Source: Pseudomonas viridiflava (GTDB lineage Bacteria > Pseudomonadota > Gammaproteobacteria > Pseudomonadales > Pseudomonadaceae). Taken from it: a stretch of 64,000 bases of DNA. The notes beneath the pieces were generated by a model, which saw nothing but the letters and a program-made list of their open reading frames with translations, made no database searches and had not been told where the DNA came from. Where the stretch lies: NCBI RefSeq assembly GCF_900582195.1, contig NZ_UTHA01000243.1:1-64000 (forward strand). The letters are read 5' to 3'. Shown here in pieces: positions 2,361-24,679 of the stretch (its first letter is position 1; each line of letters starts with the position of its first letter). The position numbers and the translations under genes were made by a program.

Positions 2361-2918
2361 TTGCACGATTCTAAACTTCTCGAAGATCTACGCGCTCGCT
2401 TCAACGCTGGAGAGCCTCTGGATTTCACTTTTTTCTGGGGACACCAGCGAAGCAAAAACACCGTCACGGCTTCGTGCTTCAGCCAGTGGTACGAAGCCGA
2501 ATTCGTTGTCGAGGGGCAACGCTACCCGACAGCCGAACATTTCATGATGGCCGAGAAGGCAGCGCTGTTCGACGATCAGGAAATTCGTGCACAAGTACTG
2601 CAGGCCCCGACCCCGAACGCCGCCAAAGCCCTCGGCCGCAAGGTGCGCGGATTCAACGACCCACTCTGGCTGCAACACCGATACGACATCGTCGTCCAGG
2701 CAAACCAAGCCAAGTTTTCCCAAAACCCGGAGCTGGACGAATACCTGATGCGCACCGGATCTCGGGTCATTGTCGAAGCGAGCCCGGTTGATGCCATTTG
2801 GGGAATTGGACTCGCGCAAGATCACGCAGATGTGAACGATCCGAATCTGTGGAAAGGCCTGAATCTTTTGGGGTTTGCACTGATGCAGGTTCGGGACGGC
2901 AGGGTTGGATTGTCCTGA
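2361..2918 (+). CDS. NADAR family protein (YbiA-like N-glycosidase / ADP-ribose hydrolase)
   Basis: A 185-residue NADAR-domain protein. The characteristic start of the fold (DFTFFWGH near residue 22), the segment YPTAEHFMMAEKA near residue 54, and the C-terminal IWGIGLAQ and LWKGLNLLGFALM are all present. E. coli YbiA hydrolyses N-glycosidic bonds of damaged riboflavin intermediates. Other NADAR proteins remove ADP-ribose from guanine and can act as antitoxins to DarT-like toxins. No toxin gene is visible beside it. The apparent start is a TTG at 2361 preceded by GAGGAAA; the alternative is a later ATG that would cut into the domain. It is monocistronic. Family is secure; the specific substrate is inference. 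Confidence 0.85.
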   Translation: MHDSKLLEDLRARFNAGEPLDFTFFWGHQRSKNTVTASCFSQWYEAEFVVEGQRYPTAEHFMMAEKAALFDDQEIRAQVLQAPTPNAAKALGRKVRGFNDPLWLQHRYDIVVQANQAKFSQNPELDEYLMRTGSRVIVEASPVDAIWGIGLAQDHADVNDPNLWKGLNLLGFALMQVRDGRVGLS

Positions 2919-3145
2919 GCTTTATCGGAGGTGGTGCGGGTCATAAATTGCAGGTGTATTGATATTCGAAGGGGAAGAATACTGTATCGACCACTAATGA
3001 AAATGGCGCATCAATCAGTAAAAAGGGAATCAACTTGCCTTTGGATGTACCTACCAACCACCAGTCGAACCGAACTCCTATGTAAGGACATCGGTGCTTG
3101 TCATAAGAAAAACGGGATGAACCGCTGCAAAAGTCCCCACGCATG
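2919..3145. other. Intergenic stretch without a recognisable gene
   Basis: About 230 bases between the NADAR stop and the tRNA-Pro terminator. It is richer in A and T than its surroundings. Short open frames exist on both strands, but none has a convincing ribosome-binding site or composition. It lies on the 3' side of tRNA-Pro, a place where integrative elements often insert, but no integrase, direct repeat or attachment core is seen. Confidence 0.5.
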
Positions 3146-3173
3146 AAAAAGCCCAACTCGCGAAAGCTGGGCT
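3146..3173 (-). terminator. Intrinsic terminator after tRNA-Pro
   Basis: On the minus strand AGCCCAGCT and AGTTGGGCT form a stem around TTCGCG and are followed by a run of five T. It ends the transcript that carries ihfA, merR and tRNA-Pro. Confidence 0.8.
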
Positions 3174-3189
3174 AACTCATTGAAAAATA

Positions 3190-3266
3190 TGGTCGGGACG
3201 GAGTGATTCGAACACTCGACCCCTAGCACCCCATGCTAGTGCGCTACCGGACTGCGCTACGCCCCG
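3190..3266 (-). tRNA. tRNA-Pro (GGG anticodon)
   Basis: Cloverleaf read on the minus strand, 77 bases including an encoded CCA (3190-3192). The acceptor stem is CGGGGCG/CGTCCCG with one G-T pair, the anticodon stem is CTAGC/GCTAG, and the anticodon loop ATGGGGT gives anticodon GGG for proline. The T loop is GTTCGAATC. It follows the merR-like gene by 88 bases and may be co-transcribed with it. Confidence 0.95.
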
Positions 3267-3354
3267 ACTGGTTTGAAACCCGTTCTTCACCTCGAAGAAC
3301 GCTCAAGAATATAGCGCAAGCGTTTGAAAACTGGAAGTATTCAAACGCCGCTTT

Positions 3355-3711
3355 TTATTTCTTGAGAACCACCAGCACATCTTCCAATTCGGCAATCATC
3401 TGCCGAATCATCTGTTTGTATTGGGTAGTGTCGTCTTTGGCTTCATCGCCGGACAAGCGCAGGCGTGCGCCGCCGATGGTGAAACCTTGATCGTAAAGGA
3501 GCGCGCGGATCTGCCGGATCATCAGCACGTCCTGGCGCTGATAATACCGGCGGTTTCCGCGGCGTTTGACGGGGTTGAGCTGAGGAAACTCCTGCTCCCA
3601 GTAGCGCAGCACGTGTGGCTTTACGGCACACAGCTCGCTGACTTCACCGATGGTGAAGTAGCGTTTGCCCGGGATGACGGGTAGTTCGTCGTTATGACTT
3701 GGTTCCAGCAT
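3355..3711 (-). CDS. MerR family transcriptional regulator
   Basis: A 118-residue DNA-binding protein with an N-terminal MerR winged helix: [12 protein letters not shown] near residue 17 and the conserved VLRYWEQEF and RRGNRRYY. A short C-terminal helix follows. There is no metal-binding cysteine pair at the C-terminus, so it is not a classic metal sensor. The ATG at 3711 (MLEPSHND) is preferred over one at 3720 three codons upstream. It overlaps the end of ihfA by 20 bases, so it is translated from the ihfA transcript. A MerR gene after ihfA is usual in Pseudomonas and other gammaproteobacteria; its target is unknown. Confidence 0.88.
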
Positions 3712-3994
3712 AAGCCTCAACTCGGGCCTTCAACTTCTGCCCTGGACGAAAGGTGACCACACGGCGAGCCGTGATCGGGATTTCTTCCCCCGTTTTCGGG
3801 TTGCGGCCAGGCCGCTGGCGTTTGTCCCGAAGGTCGAAATTGCCGAAACCGGACAATTTGACCTGCTCGTTGTCTTCAAGAGCGTGCCTGATTTCCTCGA
3901 AAAACAGCTCTACCAATTCCTTGGCTTCCCGCTTGTTCAGGCCCAGCTCTTCATACAGACGTTCCGCCATCTCAGCTTTCGTCAAAGCCCCCAT
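3692..3994 (-). CDS. ihfA: Integration host factor subunit alpha
   Basis: A 100-residue HU/IHF-family DNA-bending protein ([18 protein letters not shown], with [12 protein letters not shown] in the DNA-contact arm and [11 protein letters not shown] after it). It pairs with IhfB to bend DNA at specific sites and supports sigma54 promoters, recombination and nucleoid structure. It begins three bases after pheT ends and its 3' end overlaps the merR-like gene, the order seen in E. coli and Pseudomonas. Confidence 0.97.
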
Positions 3995-3997
3995 ACG

Positions 3998-6376
3998 TCA
4001 CTTCCTTAACGTGGCGTTCAACCTTTGTTCGAGCGAGGTGAGGATATTTTGCGTCGTCGAATTCACCTCATCGTCATTAAGAGTGCGCGATGGATGCTGC
4101 CAGGTCAAGCCAACTGCAAGGCTTTTTCTATCAGGATCAATGCCTTTACCCTGATACACGTCAAACAGCCTGAGATCTGTGAGCCATTCACCTGCATTTT
4201 CACGGATTACGTCCAGTACGGCTGCGGACGCGACGTCTTTGTGCGCAATCAGTGCAAGGTCACGACGCACTTCAGGAAAGCGCGACAACTCGTGGAATTT
4301 CGGCATTTTACCGAGTGCCACTTCAGCCAGAACCAGCTCGAAAACGAAGACCGGACGATCCAGACCCAAGGCTTTCGACAATTCCGGGTGGATGGCGCCG
4401 ATGAAACCGACTTCACGCCCTTCCCGCTCGATTCGCGCGGTTTGGCCCGGGTGCAGCGCCGGGTGTTTGCCCGGTGCGAAGGTGAAAGAATCCAGCGCAC
4501 CAGCGAAACCCAGCACTGCCTCAACGTCAGCTTTGACGTCGAAGAAGTCGACGGTGTCGCGACCCTGCGCCCAACCTTCCGGCAGACGGCTACCGCAAAC
4601 CACACCGGACAGCATCGGCTCTTGCTTCAGGCCTTCGAGCTGACCGACGAAGCGCAGACCGCTTTCGAACAGACGCACGCGATCTTGCTGACGGTTGAGG
4701 TTGTGCTGCAGCGCTTTGACCAGACCCGGCCACAGCGACGAACGCATGGCAGCCATGTCATTGGAGATCGGATTGGCCAGCAACAGCGGCTCGACGCCCG
4801 GGTTGAACAGTTCGAACTGACGCGGATCGATGAAGCTGTAAGTGATCGCTTCCTGATAACCACGCGCCACCAGCAGACGGCGCAGCTCCGGCAGATCGCT
4901 ACGCGCTTCAGCTTTGGCTTGCGGCGCCAGACGCGCTTGCGGATAACGAACCGGCAGACGGTTGTAACCGTACAGACGGGCCAACTCTTCGATCAGATCG
5001 ACTTCCAGGCTGATGTCGAAGCGATGGCTTGGCACTTCTACGCGCCACTGGCCTTCACCGTCGGCGGTAATGCCCAGACCCAGGCCGCCGAGCAAACGCT
5101 CAACCTGGGCGGAGTCCATTTCCATACCGAGCATCTGAGTGATGCGCTGGGAACGCAGAGTGATCGGCGCGATCGACGGCAGATGCTGCTCGCTGACGGT
5201 CTCGATGATCGGGCCGGCTTCGCCGCCAGTGATTTCCAGCAGCAGGCCAGTGGCGCGCTCCATGGCTTCACGGGCCAGTTGCCAGTCGACGCCACGCTCG
5301 TAACGGTGCGACGCATCGGTGTGCAGACCATAGGAACGAGCCTTGCCCGCCACAGCGATCTGGTCGAAGAACGCACTTTCCAGGAATACATCGCGAGTGG
5401 TCGTGGACACACCGCTGTGCTCGCCACCCATGACACCGGCAATCGCCAGCGCGCGAGTGTGGTCAGCGATCACCAGCGTATCGCTACGCAGGCTGACTTC
5501 CTGACCGTCGAGCAGCACCAGCTTCTCGCCCTCTTCCGCCATACGCACGCGGATGCCGCCATTGATTTCGGCGAGATCGAAAGCGTGCAGTGGCTGACCC
5601 AGTTCGAGCATCACGTAGTTGGTGATGTCGACGGCAGCGTCGATGCTGCGCACATCGGCACGACGCAGACGCTCAACCATCCACAGCGGCGTCGGCCTGG
5701 ACAGGTCAACGTTACGGATAACGCGGCCCAGGTAACGCGGGCATGCCGCCGGAGCCAGCACTTCTACCGAGCGCACTTCATCGTGCACGGCAGGAATGGC
5801 CATGACCACCGGACGGGTAACCGGCGCGTCGTACAGCGCGCCAACTTCACGGGCCAGTCCGGCCAGGGACAGGCAGTCGCCACGGTTCGGGGTCAGGTCG
5901 ACCTCGATGCTGGCGTCTTCCAGATCCAGGTACACACGGAAATCTTCGCCCACCGGCGCATCGACCGGCAGCTCCATCAGACCGTCGTTGCCTTCACCGA
6001 TCTGCAGCTCGGCTTGCGAGCACAGCATGCCGTTCGACTCGACGCCACGCAGCTTGGCCTTCTTGATCTTGAAGTCACCCGGCAGTTCGGCACCGATCAT
6101 GGCGAACGGAATCTTCAGACCCGGACGCACGTTTGGCGCACCGCACACGACCTGGAAGGTCTCTACACCATTGCTGACCTGGCACACGCGCAACTTGTCG
6201 GCATCAGGGTGTTGCTCGGTGCTCAGCACCTCGCCCACCACCACGCCGCTGAATACACCGGCGGCCGGGGTCACGCTATCGACCTCAAGACCGGCCATCG
6301 ACAGACGAGCAACCAGCTCGTCGCGATCTACCTGCGGGCTAACCCAGCCACGCAGCCATTGTTCACTGAATTTCAT
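3998..6376 (-). CDS. pheT: Phenylalanyl-tRNA synthetase beta subunit
   Basis: A 792-residue beta chain of the (alpha-beta)2 PheRS, which charges tRNA-Phe. It begins MKFSEQWLRGWV and continues with the tRNA-binding OB domain (about residues 40-150, with HPDADKLRVC). Then come the B3/B4 editing domain (about 210-390), the B5 domain and synthetase-like core, and a C-terminal FDX-ACB anticodon-binding domain ending GLTWQHPSRTLNDDEV. Length matches the bacterial family (about 795). It is 26 bases downstream of pheS and three upstream of ihfA. Confidence 0.98.
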   Translation of the reverse strand: MKFSEQWLRGWVSPQVDRDELVARLSMAGLEVDSVTPAAGVFSGVVVGEVLSTEQHPDADKLRVCQVSNGVETFQVVCGAPNVRPGLKIPFAMIGAELPGDFKIKKAKLRGVESNGMLCSQAELQIGEGNDGLMELPVDAPVGEDFRVYLDLEDASIEVDLTPNRGDCLSLAGLAREVGALYDAPVTRPVVMAIPAVHDEVRSVEVLAPAACPRYLGRVIRNVDLSRPTPLWMVERLRRADVRSIDAAVDITNYVMLELGQPLHAFDLAEINGGIRVRMAEEGEKLVLLDGQEVSLRSDTLVIADHTRALAIAGVMGGEHSGVSTTTRDVFLESAFFDQIAVAGKARSYGLHTDASHRYERGVDWQLAREAMERATGLLLEITGGEAGPIIETVSEQHLPSIAPITLRSQRITQMLGMEMDSAQVERLLGGLGLGITADGEGQWRVEVPSHRFDISLEVDLIEELARLYGYNRLPVRYPQARLAPQAKAEARSDLPELRRLLVARGYQEAITYSFIDPRQFELFNPGVEPLLLANPISNDMAAMRSSLWPGLVKALQHNLNRQQDRVRLFESGLRFVGQLEGLKQEPMLSGVVCGSRLPEGWAQGRDTVDFFDVKADVEAVLGFAGALDSFTFAPGKHPALHPGQTARIEREGREVGFIGAIHPELSKALGLDRPVFVFELVLAEVALGKMPKFHELSRFPEVRRDLALIAHKDVASAAVLDVIRENAGEWLTDLRLFDVYQGKGIDPDRKSLAVGLTWQHPSRTLNDDEVNSTTQNILTSLEQRLNATLRK

Positions 6377-19063: not shown

Positions 19064-20020
19064 TTACTTGGTGACCAGCTCGACCGGTGTTTCGATCACG
19101 CCGTTGGCGCCGCTGTCGACTTTCTCGCCCTTGATGATTTTCAGCGCGGTTTCGATGCCGAACACTGCCTGCTTCGCAGCGAACTGGTCAGCCGTGGCCA
19201 ACACGCGACCGTCCTTCAACATGGGCTTGATGGCATTGATGTTGTCGTAACCGACGACCTGAACCTGACCGGCCTTGCCAGCGGCACGCACTGCGGAAAC
19301 CGCACCTACAGCCATGCTGTCGTTGCCGGCCAGCAATGCCTTGACATCCGGGTACTCGCTGAGGATCGACGCGGCAACCTTGTTGCCCTTGTCGATTTCC
19401 CAGTCACCGGACTGCAGGGAAACGATCTTGATCTGCGCAGCGTCCATCGCATCCTTGAAGCCAGCGGTGCGCTGCTGGGCGTTGGTCGTGGTGGACACGC
19501 CTTCAATGATGCCGACTTCGTCTCCGGCCTTGAGCTGCTTGGCCAGATATTCACCGACCAGACGTGCGCCTTTGCGATTGTCCGGGCCTACGAAGGGCAC
19601 ACTGATATTTTTGCTTTTGACGATGGCCGGATCGAGCTGATTGTCGATGTTGATCACGGTGATGCCGGCATCGACGGCTTTCTTGATCACCGGCACCATG
19701 GCCTTGGAATCGGAAGGCGCGATCACCAGTGCATTAACCTTGGCCAAAATCATCTGCTCGACGATGCGGGTCTGGCCAGCAGTATCGGTTTCATCCTTGA
19801 TGCCGTTGGAGATCAGGTCGAAATCGGCGGAGTGTTCTTTCTGGTAGGCCTTGGCGCCATCTTCCATGGTCAGGAAGAATTCGTTGGCCAGAGACTTCAT
19901 GACCAGCGCGACTTTAGGTTTTTCGGCGGATTCGGCGAATGCCGAGGAGACAGGTAGTGCGGCGGCTGTGGCAGCCAGCATAGCGACAGCAAGAAGACGT
20001 CCAGCGAATGGCAGCTTCAT
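19064..20020 (-). CDS. rbsB: Periplasmic ribose-binding protein
   Basis: A 318-residue substrate-binding protein with a signal peptide (about residues 1-29, ending AFAES). The mature protein has the two-lobed sugar-binding pattern: KVALVMKSLANEFF, NALVIAPSDSKAM, GPDNRKGARL and LAGNDSMAVGAV. It is the first gene of the operon, and the 57-base gap to rbsA may allow differential expression. Confidence 0.96.
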   Translation of the reverse strand: MKLPFAGRLLAVAMLAATAAALPVSSAFAESAEKPKVALVMKSLANEFFLTMEDGAKAYQKEHSADFDLISNGIKDETDTAGQTRIVEQMILAKVNALVIAPSDSKAMVPVIKKAVDAGITVINIDNQLDPAIVKSKNISVPFVGPDNRKGARLVGEYLAKQLKAGDEVGIIEGVSTTTNAQQRTAGFKDAMDAAQIKIVSLQSGDWEIDKGNKVAASILSEYPDVKALLAGNDSMAVGAVSAVRAAGKAGQVQVVGYDNINAIKPMLKDGRVLATADQFAAKQAVFGIETALKIIKGEKVDSGANGVIETPVELVTK

Positions 20021-20668: not shown

Positions 20669-22106
<1,438 letters not shown>

Positions 22107-22275: not shown

Positions 22276-22316
22276 TTGCGAAAATGCTTACAGTTAAATA
22301 CTGTATGCACGTACAG
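22276..22316 (+). promoter_or_regulatory. LexA-controlled promoter of DUF1654-endA
   Basis: A -35 element TTGCGA (22276-22281) and a -10 element TACTGT (22299-22304) are 17 bases apart. The -10 is overlapped by CTGTATGCACGTACAG (22301-22316), which fits the LexA box CTGT-N8-ACAG. LexA bound there would block initiation, so the operon should be induced by DNA damage. Confidence 0.85.
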
Positions 22317-22334
22317 CTTAATAAGGATAACCTC

Positions 22335-22574
22335 GTGGCCACCTCCCCTGATGCTCCTGACGCTTACGAACGCATGGGCATGCGCGTTCAGAAAATCATC
22401 AATTCCCCGACCGCCCAAAAAGCCAAAGCCGCACTGATCTTCCGTTTGCCGGACGAGCCGATGGACGACTGGGAGCGTCTGCTTGAGGAAATCGACGAGA
22501 ACGACAACGTCACCCTCGCCTATCGCGACGACGGTGGCGTGCAGATTTTTTGGGTTGTACCGAAGGAAGATTGA
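22335..22574 (+). CDS. DUF1654 domain protein, SOS-controlled
   Basis: A 79-residue acidic protein matching DUF1654: YERMGMRVQKIINSPTAQKA, then a Trp-containing acidic segment (WERLLEEIDENDNV) and the end VQIFWVVP. The GTG at 22335 is chosen because AAGGATAA lies about six bases before it and the LexA box lies upstream. A longer reading from 22284 would run through the promoter. It is four bases ahead of endA. Biochemical role unknown; the regulation implies a DNA-damage function. Confidence 0.85.
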   Translation: MATSPDAPDAYERMGMRVQKIINSPTAQKAKAALIFRLPDEPMDDWERLLEEIDENDNVTLAYRDDGGVQIFWVVPKED

Positions 22575-22578
22575 TTCA

Positions 22579-23268
22579 ATGAGTGTCCGCTGTTTTGCTT
22601 TGCTGCTTTTGTTTATCGCCATGGGTGCCCAGGCTGGCGCACCCCGCACCTTTACCGAAGCCAAGAAGGTCGCATGGAAGCTTTATGCGCCGCAGTCCAC
22701 AGAGTTTTATTGCGGGTGCAAGTACACCGGCAACAAGGTGGATCTGAAGGCGTGCGGTTACGTACCGCGCAAGAATGCCAAGCGTGCGTCACGCATTGAA
22801 TGGGAACACATCGTGCCGGCCTGGCAGTTCGGTCATCAGCGTCAGTGCTGGCAGGCAGGTGGACGCAAGAACTGCACGCGTTACGACCCAAGCTATCAAA
22901 AGGCTGAAGCCGATCTGCATAACCTGGTGCCGAGTATTGGCGAGGTCAATGGCGACCGCAGCAACTTCAGTTACGGTTGGCTGCCGGTGCAATCCGGGCA
23001 GTACGGTTCGTGCCTGACCCAGGTCGACTTCAAGGCGAAGAAGGTCATGCCTCGCCCGTCGATTCGCGGCATGATCGCCCGCACTTACTTCTACATGAGC
23101 AAGCAATACGGCTTGCGCCTGTCGAAACAGGATCGACAACTGTACGAGGCGTGGGATAAGACCTACCCGGTGCAGGACTGGGAGCGTCAGCGCAATCAGA
23201 GCGTGGCGTGCGTGATGGGGCGCGGCAATGAATTTGTCGGCCCGGTGAATATGAAAGCCTGCGGTTGA
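22579..23268 (+). CDS. endA: Endonuclease I, exported
   Basis: A 229-residue secreted or periplasmic DNase. The signal peptide is MSVRCFALLLLFIAMGAQA. The nuclease core has IEWEHIVPAW with the catalytic His, and DLHNLVPSIGEVNGDRSN, the metal-binding and family signature. Multiple cysteines (YCGCKY, KACG, RQCW, KNC, GSC, ACV, KACG) fit an extracytoplasmic protein. A longer open frame starting at 22483 overlaps DUF1654 and lacks the signal peptide at its start. Co-transcription with DUF1654 places it under LexA. Confidence 0.93.
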   Translation: MSVRCFALLLLFIAMGAQAGAPRTFTEAKKVAWKLYAPQSTEFYCGCKYTGNKVDLKACGYVPRKNAKRASRIEWEHIVPAWQFGHQRQCWQAGGRKNCTRYDPSYQKAEADLHNLVPSIGEVNGDRSNFSYGWLPVQSGQYGSCLTQVDFKAKKVMPRPSIRGMIARTYFYMSKQYGLRLSKQDRQLYEAWDKTYPVQDWERQRNQSVACVMGRGNEFVGPVNMKACG

Positions 23269-23283
23269 TCGACCACTAAAAAT

Positions 23284-23317
23284 AAAAGGCCTCGAACGTC
23301 ATGTCCGAGGCCTTTTT
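23284..23317. terminator. Bidirectional intrinsic terminator
   Basis: AAGGCCTCG/CGAGGCCTT stem with an A run before and a T run after. It ends endA on the plus strand and the siderophore-interacting protein gene on the minus strand. Confidence 0.9.
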
Positions 23318-24313: not shown

Positions 24314-24679
24314 TTACGGCGTGAGCGGGTGCTCAACCACCACCGATTCAATATTCTGCTTCTTGGCTTTCACCAGAGCAGCATCCACTTGTACTTTTCG
24401 GGCCTCAGCTTCGGCTTGCGAGTTGAAAGGACCAATCAGAATTCGCGCTTTGCCACTGCTGTCCTTGATCACCGTAGGCACGAAGGCGTGCTCAATCAAC
24501 CAGCCGCTCAGGTCGCTGATAGCCTGCGGGGTCTCGCCGCGCACTTCGAGATCCCATTGTGGTGCGGCCGCAGCAGGCGCCGTCACTACAGCCGATTGTG
24601 GTTTTGCTGCGTCTGCATTCTTGCCTTCACCACAGCCAGTCAATACCAGAGCCGCGACCAACCAAACCAATTTGCGCAC
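24314..24679 (-). CDS. SPOR-domain lipoprotein
   Basis: A 121-residue lipoprotein with lipobox LTGC (lipidated Cys about residue 16) and a C-terminal SPOR-type repeat (VPTVIKDSSGKARILIGPFNS, followed by an EAEARK helix). SPOR domains bind denuded peptidoglycan at the division septum. It stands alone between the siderophore-interacting protein gene and rsmE. A role at the septum is inferred from the domain. Confidence 0.8.
   Translation of the reverse strand: MRKLVWLVAALVLTGCGEGKNADAAKPQSAVVTAPAAAAPQWDLEVRGETPQAISDLSGWLIEHAFVPTVIKDSSGKARILIGPFNSQAEAEARKVQVDAALVKAKKQNIESVVVEHPLTP

Follow-up and report, generated by a model that had tools for sequence, protein, structure and literature searches.

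In the genome studied here, genes of the Pseudomonas LexA (SOS) regulon whose products act inside the cell, on DNA or on cell division (lexA-sulA, yebG, topoisomerase and radical SAM genes), carry an upstream box of the same type as one found before a gene pair that, unlike them, encodes a predicted exported nuclease (EndA) and a DUF1654 protein. Secreted nucleases under SOS control are represented by the extracellular nuclease of Serratia marcescens and by nuclease bacteriocins. Our locus shares with these an SOS-controlled secreted nuclease, predicted in our case, and differs from them in nuclease family and in species. We know of no DUF1654 protein in the Serratia nuclease or nuclease bacteriocin systems, and bacteriocins kill, which EndA, to our knowledge, does not; a literature search for the Serratia precedent returned nothing usable. 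Endonuclease I of Vibrio and Escherichia coli belongs to the same family as EndA (PF04231) and has the same N-terminal signal and EWEH motif. We are aware of no SOS control of either enzyme.

In Pseudomonas aeruginosa, endA has been linked to AmrZ and to biofilm dispersion, and EndA overexpression disperses biofilms, according to one report (PMC9769550). The accessible portion of a review describes a LexA regulon of about 15 genes and leaves endA unmentioned (PMC13114513). Two other papers give P. aeruginosa PA0922, beside dinB, as a LexA target (PMC8944484) and describe DNA released by SOS-linked lysis in Burkholderia (PMC10710452). For DUF1654, the literature searched yielded a single match, a phage report (PMC13028781). 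A search on LexA or SOS control of endA-type nucleases in Pseudomonas, which left most subscription papers outside its reach, found nothing on the operon or its induction. SOS-controlled nucleases have precedents, and our best reading is that the DUF1654-endA operon is specific to the genus. We propose that LexA probably controls DUF1654 and endA as one SOS operon, from which DNA damage would release a DNase.

Promoter and genes of the DUF1654-endA locus

The window (the whole stretch of Pseudomonas viridiflava DNA that was analyzed, 64,000 nucleotides) contains the following features.

22276..22281, + strand: -35 hexamer TTGCGA, lying within the conserved TTGCGAAA
22299..22304, + strand: -10 hexamer TACTGT, separated from the -35 by a 17-base spacer and overlapping the LexA box
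22301..22316, + strand: predicted LexA (SOS) box CTGTATGCACGTACAG, an exact 16-mer match
22335..22574, + strand: DUF1654 gene, GTG start, acidic protein of 79 amino acids (PF07867, E 3.1e-32)
22579..23268, + strand: endA, endonuclease I, 229 amino acids, predicted exported (PF04231, E 1.5e-38)
22579..22635, + strand: likely Sec signal peptide of EndA, MSVRCFALLLLFIAMGAQA, recognized by eye and not by a signal-peptide program
23284..23316, no strand assigned: palindromic terminator-like hairpin 3′ of endA, 14 pairs, listed by the scan on the - strand only

The first-pass annotation had described a LexA box over the -10 of a well-spaced promoter, followed by DUF1654 and endA four bases apart. 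Both parts of this description hold: the box is exact and begins within the -10 of the TTGCGA-17-TACTGT promoter, so that CTGTATGCACGTACAG lies across TACTGT, and the gap between the two genes is TTCA. The promoter is absent from the list of a consensus promoter scan because TACTGT has only 3 of the 6 consensus letters; it is supported instead by conservation, each letter of TTGCGAAA being 94 to 100% conserved in 31 divergent representatives. The promoter spacer also contains an inverted repeat, ACAGTTAAATACTGT (22290-22304), that is conserved in part and may be a second operator or a chance occurrence.

The list of open reading frames begins the DUF1654 frame at an upstream ATG (22284). We consider the GTG at 22335 the better start, because a start-picking script chose GTG in 137 of 144 core homologues and the distance from box to start is exactly 18 bases in 102 of 149 box-bearing loci. 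The DUF1654 protein scores 110.6 bits against PF07867 (cut-off, 27) and EndA 133.3 bits against PF04231 (cut-off, 25). EndA also matches solved endonuclease I chains (2vnd, 2g7e, and 1ouo), with the EWEH motif, itself visible by eye, included in the alignment to one such chain, and scores 273 against the NCBIfam deoxyribonuclease I equivalog model, below that model's own cut-off of 372. With the family match and the N-terminal signal seen by eye, the exported DNase of the first-pass annotation stands as a prediction: EndA probably leaves the cytoplasm and acts as a DNase. A T run follows the hairpin behind endA on the + strand too. A library of anti-phage defense proteins gave no match for the 4 proteins checked.

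Conservation of the box and of the gene order in Pseudomonas

PF07867 is present in 173 of 199 Pseudomonas genomes, leaving 26 without DUF1654. Across the order it is rare, occurring in 4 of 145 genomes, one of which is that of the window. We read 180 DUF1654 loci, which represent every one of the 173 genomes, with multicopy genomes covered for some of their copies; 150 of these places come from 146 genomes and 30 more from the other 27. The first-pass annotation had named a box not conserved in relatives as one result that would refute it, and had asked how often endA follows DUF1654 across Pseudomonas; its reading survives that conservation test. CTGTN8ACAG lies just upstream of DUF1654 at 179 of the 180 loci (149/150 and 30/30), the sole exception (L082) having CTGTACGCACATCCAG, with one mismatch, and endA is directly behind DUF1654 at 137 (118/150 and 19/30). 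Of 442 relatives from named species, the nearest 80 carry, without exception, the box and an adjacent endA, which is a weak test by itself because these are the closest relatives.

In the 31 representatives, no two of which reach 75% identity over the region, TTGCGAAA, CTGTA, TACAG, their spacing and most of the AAATA before the box are nearly invariant, and the flanks are poorly conserved. A chance match of the box is ruled out by this footprint and by its presence at 179 loci.

For the comparisons below, we define as core 144 of the 150 loci, leaving out six loci (L057, L059, L078, L097, L154, and L158) that we label prophage-type from where they fall in a tree of poor resolution; the 30 further loci are outside this classification. 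With its 70 columns, the DUF1654 tree has too little resolution to support either a phage origin of the core gene or the opposite direction. Two loci have an unusual endA. In L096 (G100), two endA matches lie at nearly one place behind DUF1654, which could mean that the alignment is split, that the gene is frameshifted or that it is present in tandem, and L027 apparently keeps only an endA remnant.

Retention of a nuclease behind DUF1654

An EndA match is missing from 11 of 199 genomes. In all 11, and in exactly these, tblastn places a nuclease of another fold directly behind DUF1654, in the position of EndA. The replacement proteins belong to or resemble the Exo_endo_phos family (11/11). The nine on which Pfam was run are all Exo_endo_phos, seven of them with an additional, mostly weak, Ada metal-binding domain, and all nine start with an export signal recognized by eye. 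In 11 of 11 cases, CTGTN8ACAG is found 5′ of DUF1654, at a distance of 322 to 499 bases from the nuclease match. The exchange was probably made in place, because at 7 of the 11 loci some of the neighboring genes are those of the window (open reading frames 19064-20020, 21018-22106 or 24314-24679). At one further locus (L007), a long EndA lies 209 bases behind DUF1654. NCBIfam names the C-terminal part of the one replacement nuclease scanned "sunset," and this small cysteine domain forms the C-terminal part of L007:1926-2891 and of L128:2748-3833, two nucleases whose folds are unrelated.

The box is absent from the nucleases we read that are not behind DUF1654. It was found within 700 bases of 0 of 29 long EndA paralogues in other places; long EndA paralogues are about 50% identical, and the one behind DUF1654 has the box. 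It was likewise found within 900 bases of 0 of 20 endA genes from genomes in which DUF1654 is not adjacent (18 of the 26 genomes that have no DUF1654, plus G013 and G054, which have only a remote copy), and at 0 of 3 relatives of the replacement nuclease elsewhere in three other genomes. Since neither the paralogues nor the other endA genes carry it, the box goes with DUF1654 and not with endA as such. It is conserved at the DUF1654 site and absent from all three sets of controls, as expected of a member of the SOS regulon. Together with the exchange of nucleases, its absence away from the operon suggests that selection keeps the combination of LexA box, DUF1654 and some exported nuclease.

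An alternative is that DUF1654 is the only gene selected for SOS control and that endA merely lies downstream, with nothing gained from that control. Such an arrangement would account for the 14 of 144 core loci that have the box and DUF1654 with no nuclease behind, which make the linkage of DUF1654 and nuclease less than absolute, and for phage-type loci with box and DUF1654 and no endA. We nevertheless find it unlikely. A predicted exported nuclease (EndA, the replacement fold or the long EndA of L007) adjoins DUF1654 in 130 of the 144 core loci, and the nuclease of another fold occurs in exactly the genomes that lack EndA. Moreover, the genomes of all 14 solo loci carry a second, long EndA elsewhere, compared with 15 of 118 in the endA class (Fisher P = 5e−10, calculated with L007 counted as solo and with L048 and L095 not yet placed in the replacement class).

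Resemblance of the box to LexA sites

In the window alone, the box has 3 matches with one mismatch allowed, which is not significant by itself given the 1.44 expected. Across the genome, exact CTGTATN6ACAG occurs at 12 places (16 strand matches), compared with 1 for the reversed control. Among the 12 places are the promoters of lexA-sulA and yebG as well as genes for a topoisomerase and a radical SAM protein; near several others, no SOS gene was seen. Two matches to LexA_DNA_bind, the family of LexA DNA-binding domains, occur in this genome. LexA-like sites, defined as at least 7 of 8 fixed letters within 150 bases upstream, precede lexA at 30 of 30 loci and yebG at 30 of 30 (from 40 genomes each). 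Under a LexA model built from the lexA and yebG sites plus four boxes of the window's own genome, every one of the 150 DUF1654 upstream regions scores higher than the 99th percentile of 3,000 random stretches, and 36 of the 150 do not beat the single best of the 3,000.

The core of the box is richer in G+C at host-type DUF1654 loci than the AT-rich cores before lexA and yebG, a difference that may affect affinity or suit a second regulator. The palindrome could be viewed as the operator of some other repressor, possibly DUF1654 itself or a partner, that is LexA-like by resemblance only. The stricter form CTGTAYGNNCRTACAG fits 141 of the 150 DUF1654 loci, and its core is not favored before lexA or yebG. 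Of 59 genomes, 50 contain it, with 1 to 4 occurrences each; of the nine genomes that lack it, seven have no DUF1654 and two (G013 and G054) have a remote copy with another core. Against this reading, boxes before phage DUF1654 genes have other cores (for example, CTGTTTATTCATACAG, CTGTATATCCATACAG, and CTGTATAAAAAAACAG), which agree with LexA but depart from the strict form, the 144 core DUF1654 proteins are acidic, with net charges of −3 to −8, and both sequence and place agree with a known kind of box. We regard control by another repressor as improbable.

Two further boxes of this genome precede genes of proteins with no Pfam match. The only other strict-form box, CTGTATGTTCATACAG, is upstream of a 105-amino-acid protein (L033, G000:C63, 1501-1857), whose gene is possibly a further SOS gene, judging from the box. 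The second, CTGTATGCATGTACAG, is just 5′ of a possible start of a 237-amino-acid protein (L034, G000:C67, 754-1516).

Proposed regulation and role of EndA

Under LexA control, the simplest and our preferred explanation, we infer that LexA would occupy 22301-22316 in undamaged cells and block the -10. DNA damage would lead to cleavage of LexA and to synthesis of a single mRNA for DUF1654 and then EndA. EndA would exit the cytoplasm by its signal peptide and cut DNA in the periplasm or outside the cell, where its substrate would most plausibly be the DNA of sibling cells that prophages or pyocins had lysed during that SOS episode. That cells benefit from a DNase released in this way is a suggestion we make tentatively; the first-pass annotation had proposed that the enzyme could supply nucleotides or degrade extracellular DNA. 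Besides the G+C-rich box core and the 14 core loci with no nuclease, several points count against LexA control of the operon as the best explanation: a further endA promoter may lie inside DUF1654, 26 genomes lack DUF1654 and the endA genes read in 18 of them have no box, P. aeruginosa endA has been linked to AmrZ, and the review of the LexA regulon leaves endA out.

The SOS response is usually viewed as intracellular repair, and here a strictly kept LexA-type site precedes a predicted exported nuclease. The pairing of site and nuclease in most sampled genomes of a large genus would tie DNA damage to the fate of extracellular DNA, which matters for biofilm matrix, gene transfer and nutrients. 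DUF1654, a family with no assigned function that is found in many Pseudomonas phages, gains a regulatory context.

DUF1654 in phages and its possible function

All 50 phage records that match DUF1654 are of Pseudomonas. In the three read, phages F116 and phi297 have the box with a Peptidase_S24 repressor nearby, and PS-1 has the repressor with an imperfect box. In viral contigs, the box is present at 53 of 57 DUF1654 loci, two of the other four beginning 33 bases before the match. Five of the 57 (L293-L297) look host-type; among the other 52, which are phage-type, 50 have the box, none has endA, and 36 have a LexA/CI-like protein within the fetched DNA.

The first-pass annotation had also suggested that DUF1654 perhaps regulates or inhibits EndA before export, but a role as its dedicated cytoplasmic inhibitor or immunity partner, to which the adjacent genes and the small acidic protein would be suited, is the least likely of the alternatives. 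The small gene of a nuclease-inhibitor or toxin-antitoxin pair would be expected only with its cognate nuclease. DUF1654 instead occurs with no nuclease at 14 of the 144 core loci, next to a nuclease of another fold at 11 and without endA at 52 of 52 phage-type loci, and endA has no neighboring DUF1654 at 49 of 49 loci off the operon (18 of them from genomes chosen as DUF1654-less).

In our best explanation, DUF1654 is instead an SOS protein with a cytoplasmic job of its own that temperate phages also use. Prophages have LexA-controlled antirepressors and DinI-like proteins, and phage DUF1654 resembles these: it too is a small gene that carries a LexA box and lies close to a CI/S24 repressor. 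It differs from them in having no named Pfam relative and no significant fold match. Pfam names no relatives beyond DUF1654 itself, and a DUF1654 profile had no match among PDB sequences. The predicted fold (mean pLDDT, 92.4) found no Foldseek match at an E value of 0.001 or better in the PDB or among viral models; its best match in VIA is the winged-helix protein CtsR (3h0d; Z, 6.9; root mean square deviation, 2.4; 68 aligned).

DUF1654 lies close to repressor genes in phages and does not depend on EndA, which suggests that it may modulate the SOS or lysogeny switch. By extension, the operon might serve a genus-wide clean-up after lysis, in which an exported or spilled DNase cuts the DNA of dying kin and DUF1654 is an SOS modulator shared by hosts and phages, possibly acting on RecA or on LexA/CI-type repressors; we think this broader scheme conceivable but doubtful. 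At L154 (G181, 2468-4486), a DUF1654 gene that we class as phage-type carries a box of its own and precedes a gene for a UmuC-like polymerase by about 0.5 kb.
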